Shown piece by piece: positions 19,956 through 26,290 of a stretch of DNA of 37,024 bases (the first letter of the stretch is position 1; every line of letters begins with the position of its first letter). The notes under the pieces are model-generated. The model made no database searches, was not told the DNA's origin, and worked only from the letters and a program-made list of their open reading frames with translations. The stretch covers positions 1 through 37,024 of the forward strand of contig QJYK01000297.1 in NCBI GenBank assembly GCA_003248075.1. The letters are read 5' to 3'. This stretch comes from Gemmatimonadota bacterium. Lineage in GTDB: Bacteria; Gemmatimonadota; Gemmatimonadetes; Longimicrobiales; Gaopeijiaceae. The position numbers and the translations under genes are program-made.

Positions 19956-19975
19956 CCTGACAAGGAGTGAAGATC

Positions 19976-21190
19976 GTGGCATCGAAGTCAGTCGGCCGGC
20001 TCCTCGTGTTGACGCCGCTCGCGCTCGGCGCGCTCGCCGTTCCCGTCGGAGACGCGAAGGCGATCCCGGCGTTCGCACGCAAGTACGGTGTGTCGTGCTC
20101 CCTTTGCCATCAGCCCACCCCCCGGCTGAACGCGGTGGGCGAGATGTTCGCCGCGAACGGCTTCCGACTCGCGCTCGGTGAGCCGGCCGTGGGAGCCGTC
20201 GACACCGGGGACGGGCTCCTGCGCCTGATGCAGGACGTGCCGTTGGCGATGCGGGTGGACGCGTACATGCGCTCCTTGTCCGGCTCGGCCACGCCGAAGG
20301 TCGACCTGCAGACGCCATGGGGTATCAAGCTGCTGTCCGGCGGCGAGATCACCGACAGGATCAGCTACTACATGTACTTCTTCCTCACCGAGCGCGGTGA
20401 GGTGGCCGGTCTCGAGGACGCCTTCGTCCAGGTGAGCGACGTCGCGGGCTCGGGGGTGGACCTCGTCGTCGGACAGTTCCAGGTGTCGGATCCGCTGTTC
20501 AAGCGTGAGCTGCGCCTCGAGTACGAGGACTATCAGGCCTACCGCGTCCGCGTCGGTGAAACCCAGGCGGACCTCACGTACGACCGCGGCTTGATGGCCC
20601 ACTACAGCCCGAGAGACGGGACCGACCTGTCCGTGCAGCTGCTCAACGGGCAGGGTCTGGGTCAGGCCAGCGAGGCGAAGGCATACGACCGGAACGACTG
20701 GAAGAGCTTCGTGGCGCGGGCGTCCCAGAGCGCGGGGCCGCTCCGCATCGGCGCGGTAGGGTACTGGGGCGTCGAGACCGCCAACGACCTCGACAGCGAG
20801 ATCAGGATCTACGGACCCGATCTCACTCTCGGGCTGGGTCCTCTGCTCGAGCTCAACGGCCAGTACCTCCGCCGCACCGACGAGCGACCGTTCTTCACGG
20901 ATCTGGACGAGCCGGGCACGAAGGTCGACATGGGCTTCGCCGAGCTCGTCTACTCGCCCCAGGGGGGCGCAGGCCGGTGGTTCTTCACCGCGCTCTACAA
21001 CCATGTCGAGGCGGACGACCCGATCTTCACGGTGCGTCAGGGCGAGGACGGACTGCTCGATCGGTACCGCTCGGTCGCGCTCGGGGCGAATTATCTGCTG
21101 GCGAGAAACATGCGCATGACCGGCGAGGTCCAGCGTGACCTGGAGCTGGATCGGACCCGGCTGGTGGTCGGGTTCATGACCGCGTTCTAG
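19976..21190 (+). CDS. Monohaem cytochrome c-porin fusion (Cyc2-like layout)
   Basis: 404 aa. A signal peptide (about 1-29, ending DAKA-IP) is followed by a short haem-binding segment: IPAFARKYGVSCSLCHQ, with CxxCH at 41-45, then PRLNAVGEMFAANGFRL. The rest (about 95-404) is a run of alternating, aromatic-rich beta-strands and ends in phenylalanine, as outer-membrane beta-barrels do. One CxxCH before a barrel of about 300 residues is the architecture of Cyc2, the outer-membrane cytochrome of iron oxidisers; related porin-cytochromes of unknown function also exist. The GTG at 19976 is preferred because AAGGAG lies 8 bp upstream; an earlier GTG at 19967 overlaps that site. Neighbouring DUF2231 and cytochrome c genes support a role in electron transfer across the outer membrane. 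Confidence 0.78.
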   Translation: MASKSVGRLLVLTPLALGALAVPVGDAKAIPAFARKYGVSCSLCHQPTPRLNAVGEMFAANGFRLALGEPAVGAVDTGDGLLRLMQDVPLAMRVDAYMRSLSGSATPKVDLQTPWGIKLLSGGEITDRISYYMYFFLTERGEVAGLEDAFVQVSDVAGSGVDLVVGQFQVSDPLFKRELRLEYEDYQAYRVRVGETQADLTYDRGLMAHYSPRDGTDLSVQLLNGQGLGQASEAKAYDRNDWKSFVARASQSAGPLRIGAVGYWGVETANDLDSEIRIYGPDLTLGLGPLLELNGQYLRRTDERPFFTDLDEPGTKVDMGFAELVYSPQGGAGRWFFTALYNHVEADDPIFTVRQGEDGLLDRYRSVALGANYLLARNMRMTGEVQRDLELDRTRLVVGFMTAF

Positions 21191-21201
21191 GGAAGCTTTG
21201 C

Positions 21202-21376
21202 ACGGGTATGGTACCCCGCGCACGGCGCTTTCGCGTGTTCAGGCAAGGAGAGACGACGAGTCGTAGCAGCGCTACGGCGAGGAGGAACGACGATGGATCA
21301 ACCGCGAAACCGCCATGCGCCCACCAGCATGGGGGAGACCGAGTTACATAGGCATCGGTTGGGGCACCATACCCGT
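21202..21376. repeat. 175-bp multi-stem structured element with 16-bp terminal inverted repeats
   Basis: The ends ACGGGTATGGTACCCC (21202-21217) and GGGGCACCATACCCGT (21361-21376) pair at 15 of 16 positions. Inside, 21224-21235 pairs with 21303-21314 (11 of 12), capped by the hairpin CGTAGC-AGC-GCTACG (21262-21276). Both strands of that arm are purine-rich and alike (GGCAAGGAGAGACGACGA and GGCGAGGAGGAACGACGA). Two further hairpins are CCATGC/GCATGG (21313-21318 with 21327-21332) and ACCGA/TCGGT (21338-21342 with 21355-21359). The whole folds as a multi-branch junction closed by one long helix. It fills most of the gap between two cytochrome genes and has no obvious ORF or target-site duplication. 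It could be a small non-autonomous mobile or palindromic repeat element, or a structured RNA. Confidence 0.65.
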
Positions 21377-21405
21377 CCAGAGCGTCCCTGGGGGATGACG
21401 GCACC

Positions 21406-24478: not shown

Positions 24479-25708
24479 ATGATGACTCGGCAAACGAGAG
24501 AGGACGCGAAGAATCTGTCGTTGATCACCGGTGCGGCCCTCGTGGGCATCGCCCTGACCGCCGTCGCCGTCGCCCGATCTGCCGCACCGGTGCGGGTGAC
24601 CTCCCCGGTCGTCGTCCGCGTGGCCGAGCGGGTACATGCGGCGCCCATGTCCGCTGGCGATCGGCTCTACGGCTCCGTAACCACCCGCGACGGGGCCCGC
24701 TTCGAGGGCTTCCTGAGGTGGGACCGAAACGAGGGGAGCTGGACGGACGTGCTCGACGCCAACAAGGAACAGGATGGGCGGACGACCCAGTCGGGCATCC
24801 GATTCGGGAACGTTCGACTGATCGAGCGCCTGGGGCGCGGCGAGGCGATGCTGACCCTGCGGTCGGGCGAGCACGTCCGCATGAGCGGTCGGGCCACCGA
24901 CCTCGGAGACGGCCTTCGGGCGCTCCGCGTCGATCGTCCCGGGCTGGCCGAGGTCGAGCTCGGTTGGGGCGATCTGGACGTCGTGGAGCTGATGCCGGCA
25001 CCGGTCGAGGCGCATCCGACGGAAGGCCGCATCCGTGGTGTGCTCCGCACACGCTCGGGAGCCTCGTTTTCGGGCGCCGTCTCCTGGGACGTGGACGAGA
25101 TCTATTCCGGGGACCTGCTCGACGGCGACGTCGCCGGGGAGCGGGCGCGCATTCCGTTCGGGGAGATCGCCGCGATCGAGCGCTACAGCCGGCGGGCGGC
25201 GCGCGTCCTTCTCCGCTCGGGCGAGGAGCTGGTCCTCGAAGGCACCAACGACGTCGACGACTCCAACAGCGGTATCGCCGTCTCGGACCCCGAGCTAGGG
25301 GAGGTGAAGGTGTCGTGGGGCGAGTTCGACCGCGTCGACTTCGACGATGTCGAAGCGTCCGCGCCGGAAGTCTCCTTCGACGGTGGAAGGCGGATCCAGG
25401 GCACGGTCCTGACGTCGGCGGGAGAGCGCTTCAACGGGCTCGTTCGTTGGGATGCCGACGAGGCGAGCACCTGGGAGATGCTCAACGGAGAGCAGGACGG
25501 CGTCGCGTTCCAGGTCGAGTTCAGCCGCATCGCTCGGCTCGAGCGGACGGCGCGGGGTACACGGGTCGAGCTTCGCGACGGACGCTCGTTCGAGCTGTCC
25601 GGATCGAACGACGTCGACGACGGCAACCGGGGCATCTTGATCGATGTCGGAGGCCGCACGGTGCGCGTGTCGTGGGACGAGTTCGCGGAGCTGCGACTGG
25701 ACGGCTGA
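24479..25708 (+). CDS. Exported or membrane-anchored protein of three tandem ~100-residue repeats, unknown function
   Basis: 409 aa. A hydrophobic segment (about 13-33) is a signal or anchor. Three tandem repeats follow at about 63-171, 185-287 and 305-407. Each opens with a G-x-(V/L)-x-T-x-x-G-x-x-F-x-G strand ending in WD (for example GSVTTRDGARFEGFLRWD and GTVLTSAGERFNGLVRWD). Each has a middle I-x-x-(I/L)-E-R motif and closes with a V-x-(L/V)-x-W-(G/D)-(E/D)-(F/L) strand. Repeats 2 and 3 carry acidic loops NDVDDSNSG and NDVDDGNRG that could bind calcium; repeat 1 has a diverged version. I do not recognise the family. The beta-rich pattern suggests an envelope adhesion or scaffold protein. 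The ATG at 24479 follows a GGGGGAGA site. Confidence 0.75.
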   Translation: MMTRQTREDAKNLSLITGAALVGIALTAVAVARSAAPVRVTSPVVVRVAERVHAAPMSAGDRLYGSVTTRDGARFEGFLRWDRNEGSWTDVLDANKEQDGRTTQSGIRFGNVRLIERLGRGEAMLTLRSGEHVRMSGRATDLGDGLRALRVDRPGLAEVELGWGDLDVVELMPAPVEAHPTEGRIRGVLRTRSGASFSGAVSWDVDEIYSGDLLDGDVAGERARIPFGEIAAIERYSRRAARVLLRSGEELVLEGTNDVDDSNSGIAVSDPELGEVKVSWGEFDRVDFDDVEASAPEVSFDGGRRIQGTVLTSAGERFNGLVRWDADEASTWEMLNGEQDGVAFQVEFSRIARLERTARGTRVELRDGRSFELSGSNDVDDGNRGILIDVGGRTVRVSWDEFAELRLDG

Positions 25709-25739: not shown

Positions 25740-25756
25740 GTGCCGGGTACCGGCGC
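25740..25756. terminator. Hairpin between convergent genes
   Basis: GCCGG-GTA-CCGGC (25742-25754), extended by a G-T wobble and a G-C pair, lies between the stops of the convergent triple-repeat and DinB-like genes. There is no U-tract, so its role as a bidirectional terminator is inferred from position. Confidence 0.33.
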
Positions 25757-25765
25757 AGAGCTTCC

Positions 25766-26290
25766 CTAGACCCGAAGCGGATGCCCCCGCTGGAGCACCG
25801 GGGGCTCGCACAGGGCCGGATCGAGCTGTCGCAGGTGGTGCCGCAGGTGCGCCACGTAATCGCGCATGAGGTAGTCGATCGAAGCCGCCTCCCCGGCGGG
25901 AACGACCTCCCACGCGATCTGGTCGAGGTTGTGGTCGCAGGTCTCGCGCAGGCGGAGCCGGTCCGGCACGTGATCCATCAGGCGAGCGAGGTGGAGGTTG
26001 AACGCCTCCCAGAGGTCGACGAGACCGATCCATGGCGCCTCGACGTGGCGCTGGACGGAGACCCATTCGTCCTGCTCGTAGCCGGGAAAACGGAGGTGCT
26101 CCTGCAGCTGGGCGCGGACGAACCGGTCGTGGTTGTTCGATGCCGAGTCGATGAGATGGCCCACGATCTGCTTCGGCGTCCACGCTCCCGGGCGCCGGGG
26201 GGTGGATGCACGCTGCTCGGACCAGCCCCTCAGGGAGGCAGCCGCGAAGGGCACCAACGTGCGAAGCTCGTCGGCAGCGGGGGCGCTCAT
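25766..26290 (-). CDS. DinB-like putative metalloprotein
   Basis: 174 aa, the normal length for the DinB/YfiT-type four-helix bundle. Likely metal ligands are H45 in KQIVGHLIDSASNN, H148 in YVAHLRHHL and H152 four residues later, the usual three-histidine arrangement. Family members include thiol-dependent transferases (bacillithiol or mycothiol S-transferases) and many uncharacterised proteins; the substrate cannot be inferred. The ATG at 26290 is preceded by AGGAGGG. It is divergent from the amidohydrolase gene (141 bp gap) and convergent with the repeat protein. Confidence 0.83.
   Translation of the reverse strand: MSAPAADELRTLVPFAAASLRGWSEQRASTPRRPGAWTPKQIVGHLIDSASNNHDRFVRAQLQEHLRFPGYEQDEWVSVQRHVEAPWIGLVDLWEAFNLHLARLMDHVPDRLRLRETCDHNLDQIAWEVVPAGEAASIDYLMRDYVAHLRHHLRQLDPALCEPPVLQRGHPLRV

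Follow-up and report, generated by a model that had tools for sequence, protein, structure and literature searches.

What kind of element fills the intergenic gap next to the cytochrome genes of this Gemmatimonadota contig, and is its elaborate fold kept for the host, for the element itself or for nothing at all? The first-pass annotation had placed a structured element of 175 bp at positions 21202-21376 of the window (the whole stretch of 37,024 nucleotides that was analysed) and judged its organisation to be beyond chance. The structure is real. The plus strand of 21190-21390 folds with −102.1 kcal/mol and a z-score of −7.16, the minus strand with a z-score of −6.07, and on either strand none of 200 dinucleotide shuffles was as good. 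The 16-bp closing helix was recovered between 21202-21217 and 21361-21376, with 15 of the 16 positions paired, and the limits of the element moved outward by 11 nt on each side, giving a total length of 197 bp (21191-21387).

The element lies behind a CTAG insertion target (21187-21190, plus strand), whose last three letters, TAG, terminate the upstream ORF 19967-21190, and is flanked on the other side by CTGG (21388-21391, plus strand), a decayed copy of the same target. The left terminal inverted repeat, GGAAGCTTTGCACGGGTATGGTACCCC (21191-21217, plus strand), pairs with the right terminal inverted repeat (21361-21387, minus strand), and the same outer ends were found on many other copies and on an IS5-family element (L088:638-1808). 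Inward from the left end, the 5' side of a Watson-Crick stem, beginning with GCGCACGGCGCTTTCGCG (21218-21241, plus strand), and its 3' side, ATCAACCGCGAAACCGCCATGCGCCC (21297-21322, plus strand), both recognised from the fold and from comparison of copies, carry a conserved purine-rich folded module at 21242-21296 (plus strand), delimited by the match to covariance model R1 and by covariation. On the same strand, the module fold places a hairpin stem at 21260-21267/21271-21278 with the loop at 21268-21270, a proximal tandem G.A at 21258-21259/21279-21280, and a distal G.A-type step at 21246-21249/21289-21292. The hairpin, described earlier as a perfect one of 6 bp, is in fact an 8-pair stem, GTCGTAGC-AGC-GCTACGGC, with one T.G wobble. 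The two matching purine-rich strands are indeed opposed, not by Watson-Crick pairing alone but through tandem G.A pairs with intervening C-G/G-C pairs, which covary across relatives. Compared with the full-length copies L002, L005 and L012, the window copy is a deletion derivative, which lacks the 3' hairpin and, with it, a second module in inverted orientation; comparison with L002 and L005 locates the deletion scar, GGTTGGGGC, at 21357-21365 (plus strand), and the loss probably took place between GGGGC repeats. Elsewhere in the window, just past the stop of ORF 24479-25708, there is a solo end of the same class without module (CTAGGGAAGCTCTGCGCCGGT, 25749-25769, minus strand), probably the remnant of another copy.

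The element is not unique. The DNA search of its own genome, proposed in the first-pass annotation as a check, returned 47 matches at E up to 10, with at least 20 clear copies or copy pieces dispersed over the genome, and the search of relatives added many further copies, with matches in 20 of 39 genomes, the window's own included. Full-length copies are about 300 bp and form two hairpins, the two modules of such copies being inverted relative to each other; element lengths elsewhere range from about 150 to 430 bp. Several copies start at the preceding gene's stop codon, and some copies in the same genome carry the same core between different ends, such as GGAGCCTGTCCGAGTAATAC. The purine-rich arm of the module in one copy of the window genome (contig C113, 50277-51937; L018/L019) has received an IS110-family element with a 354-aa transposase, so that the folded module can itself be a target of insertion. 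What looked like a single 2.2-kb element in L209 proved to be a pair of inverted copies separated by an ordinary gene. On contig 1 of genome G054, five module-bearing elements are aligned in tandem with a 171-bp period (L428, around 3738500-3739300), and further tandem arrays are located around 207200 and 4079400 of the same contig.

The ends of the window copy belong to the GGAAGCTCTGCAC class, common to many copies. These ends pair at a spacing of 200-400 bp, except for one pair 1171 bp apart, which encloses a 333-aa transposase of the IS5 family (NCBIfam NF033581, E 8.4e-97). This autonomous element, L088:638-1808, is present in a genome of the same family (G008); none with matching ends was seen in the window genome. 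The autonomous element has no module; IS5 transposition as such therefore does not require one. The transposase is tied to this one end class only. Nine end classes are represented by 96 copies with both ends; of the 192 ends, 105 are at CTAG and 122 at YTAR. In the class of the window copy, 5 of 17 copies are flanked by CTAG on both sides, the window copy itself by CTAG and CTGG; CTAG being palindromic, perfect copies do not reveal whether the target was duplicated or the inverted repeat is simply longer. Empty sites were found for one module-bearing insertion of Pseudomonas, filled in P. soli and P. mosselii and cleanly empty in three other Pseudomonas genomes. For the window locus no empty site was found, the sole ortholog being distant (57% identity) and sharing no visible downstream gene. 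The element is thus shorter than 500 bp, free of a transposase gene, bounded by terminal inverted repeats and a target-site duplication, dispersed in many copies and matched in its ends by an autonomous element. On these sequence features its identification as a MITE is well supported, and the earlier proposal of a non-autonomous palindromic mobile element is borne out by the dispersed copies, the terminal inverted repeats, the CTAG target, the IS5-family element with the same ends and the empty sites of the Pseudomonas relative.

The module, of about 55 nt, consists of an 8-bp hairpin, a tandem G.A step, eight covarying pairs, either Watson-Crick or tandem G.A, and a second G.A-type step. For the analysis of covariation, 107 modules were collected, corresponding to 65 distinct rows. 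Since the rows were selected by the stem and by parts of both G.A steps (positions 1-2 and 12-13), conservation there is partly by construction, while positions 3-10 were free. At these free positions, a Watson-Crick, G.T or G.A pair is formed in 90.8% of the cells of the 65 distinct rows, against 74.5% (sd 1.3) in shuffles, which ignore relatedness. In the 31-row alignment the covariation score was 0.228, against 0.072 for shuffled alignments and at most 0.070 for slid structures, the latter control correcting for relatedness and the former not. The covariation sought as a check through a covariance model of the matches is thus present at positions 3-10. In the 31-row alignment, 13 pairs showed changes on both sides. 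Position 3 is C-G, G-C or T-A; positions 7-8 are A.G/G.A, G-C/C-G, A-T or T-A; the C-G pair between the G.A steps flips to G-C; and in other taxa Watson-Crick pairs replace the G.A steps. At the second stem pair, Watson-Crick pairing is rare and a G.T wobble is common in both orientations. Model R1, built from the 31-row alignment, scored the window copy, itself among the rows, with 72.3 bits (E 4.8e-16). The purine-rich strand outfolds its complement in 94 of 97 modules when folded as RNA and in 81 of 97 when folded as DNA. With both further copies and covariation in hand, a merely fortuitous fold, as would have been left by the lack of both, is clearly contradicted. Protein coding was considered for the module and rejected, because no reading frame is kept: the loop varies between 2 and 7 nt, and some copies have an inserted base. 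Outside the module, the Pseudomonas elements L304, L164, L169 and L352, belonging to several classes, appear to share a recurrent internal loop with GAGTG opposite GCGCC or ACGCC.

The module is not confined to the Gemmatimonadota. An exact-pattern scan of genome contigs detected it, among the matches listed, in Gemmatimonadota, Pseudomonas, Burkholderiales, Myxococcota and one record of Ca. Staskawiczbacteria; altogether it is present in at least four bacterial phyla, Betaproteobacteria, Myxococcota and Patescibacteria being represented. With model R1 the module was recovered at E 1e-4 in 34 of the 150 Gemmatimonadota genomes sampled. In the class to which Pseudomonas soli belongs, 17 of 274 genomes were positive at E 1e-6, and in the phylum of the Staskawiczbacteria genome 4 of 287. 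These counts are lower bounds, since large searches evaluate a restricted number of candidates in each genome. The 13 genomes that had supplied modules were matched without exception, and do not form an independent sample. Nearly all matches inspected lie in palindromic elements with differing ends, many of them at CTAG; the surrounding stems and ends vary between element classes, including the module-bearing CTAGTGTGGTGTTTCACAA class of Pseudomonas, while the module is kept. On large plasmids of Cupriavidus and Comamonas (L432, L433 and L434), the module was found between genes, the three loci matching the model and one of the plasmids being typed as conjugative; carriage on plasmids is a possible route of its spread. 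The exact pattern gave no match in viral contigs, and an unannotated gut phage contig (MT835554.1; L273) contains a weak match of 38 bits with CTAG-flanked ends. No module was found in E. coli genomes.

Whether the fold serves the host can be judged from its position relative to genes. Single-module elements lie in the same orientation as the upstream gene in 30 cases and in the opposite one in 32, with pairs equally divided between ++ (16) and −− (16), the strand of flanking genes being assigned from codon-position GC, a rough method. With orientation random in this way, a folded hairpin acting in cis for the element is favoured over one useful to the host. With respect to replication, the GC skew of the one-contig genome was too weak to define replichores. 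In the window copy, searches revealed neither a promoter nor a Rho-independent terminator, in which a hairpin would precede a run of T. Of the structured non-coding RNA suggested earlier, the structure is supported by covariation and strand-specific folding, and action as a non-coding RNA is a candidate role at most, the gene orientation being random and single-stranded DNA a possible alternative. Taken together, the orientation, promoter and terminator, and strand-fold results speak for a function that benefits the element and not the genes beside it, be it exerted as RNA or as single-stranded DNA.

These results bear directly on other explanations. If the module were an RNA element useful to the host at the 3' ends of genes, as transcript stabiliser, terminator or regulator, and the elements were kept for it, then the copies beginning at upstream stop codons, the very stable fold and the G.T wobble at the second stem pair would fit, as would the small RNAs produced from MITEs of Coxiella (PMC5896051). 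The random orientation and the lack of a promoter or terminator-like site in the window copy speak against such a role, the TAG stop codons are explained by CTAG targeting alone, and we regard it as distinctly improbable. Constraint on a DNA palindrome only, as the site of a protein dimer or as a cruciform in which mismatches avoid a perfect palindrome, would agree with the long palindromic elements, the inverted modules of two-module copies and the non-Watson-Crick second stem pair. A palindrome, however, should set TC opposite GA, whereas in the module GA faces GA within one strand from phylum to phylum, and eight covarying pairs lie between the two G.A steps, making an explanation by DNA symmetry alone highly improbable.

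It could also be argued that a single ancient MITE lineage was spread horizontally and changed its ends with new transposases, the core only looking conserved and having no function. The CTAG target common to many classes, the occurrence on plasmids and the sporadic presence, as in the phylum of the Staskawiczbacteria record, are in agreement with common descent of this kind. Without selection on the fold, however, one would not expect, at constant spacing, compensatory changes and the exchange of G.A for Watson-Crick pairs, and the module is kept where stems and ends differ between classes, so that we consider descent without function unlikely. Palindromes of REP/BIME type moved by a RAYT (TnpA-REP) transposase come to mind from the inverted module pairs and tandem arrays, which resemble BIMEs; with terminal inverted repeats, a CTAG target and an IS5 element bearing the same ends, this origin is hardly conceivable.

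The explanation that we prefer, and hold to be probable, is that of a MITE moved in trans by an IS5-family transposase, with the module as a structural signal acting in cis to the benefit of the element. The transposase, supplied in trans, would recognise the terminal inverted repeats and direct the element to CTAG sites, in this case the one that supplies the upstream gene with its stop codon. The module would fold on the purine-rich strand when this is single-stranded, either as DNA or in a transcript, and might then be recognised by a widely conserved factor, aiding the element in excision, in replication or in survival as a palindrome. More tentatively, and with appreciable doubt, the module may be a previously undescribed structured motif, selected in at least four phyla through the transposable element and not through the host, and acting as a general cis signal for palindromic mini-transposons whatever their transposase. 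MITEs are usually viewed as decayed transposons, of which the ends are the sole working parts; if the general reading is true, a core that retains its shape through compensatory changes in several phyla, with the ends being swapped around it, would mean that MITEs share an internal working part. The covariance model of the module also offers a means to find and classify mini-transposons.

Among known repeats, the REP, BIME and REPIN sequences resemble the present family in their inverted hairpin pairs and tandem arrays, but differ in ends, target and type of transposase, the marks of REP/BIME being a RAYT-type transposase and a GTAG-type hairpin. At the gathering threshold Rfam gave no match in the window and only two flanking tRNAs in 19 element loci, and at permissive thresholds only chance-level matches, so that the module matches no RNA family known to Rfam. 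No match to module fragments was found in the open-access literature, an absence that is no proof of an undescribed motif. QMITE1 and QMITE2 of Coxiella burnetii are, like the present elements, long palindromic MITEs, the comparison being by description and not by sequence; some of their copies yield small RNAs, QMITE1 was reported to be without orthologues in other genomes, and IS1111 inserts into a palindromic repeat of the same organism (PMC5896051). The intergenic repeats R0, R2, R6 and R178 of P. fluorescens, likewise similar by description rather than sequence, are hairpin-forming, and the ends of R0 and R2 match IS elements (PMC2718517). The closest parallel in ends and target is with IS5-derived MITEs such as MITEPsy1 of Pseudomonas syringae, an element of 100 bp shown to transpose (PMC3189936): both are short and gene-free, with terminal inverted repeats, IS-like ends and a CTAG or YTAA target with a 4-nt duplication. 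Membership of the present family rests on a folded core that elements with different ends have in common.
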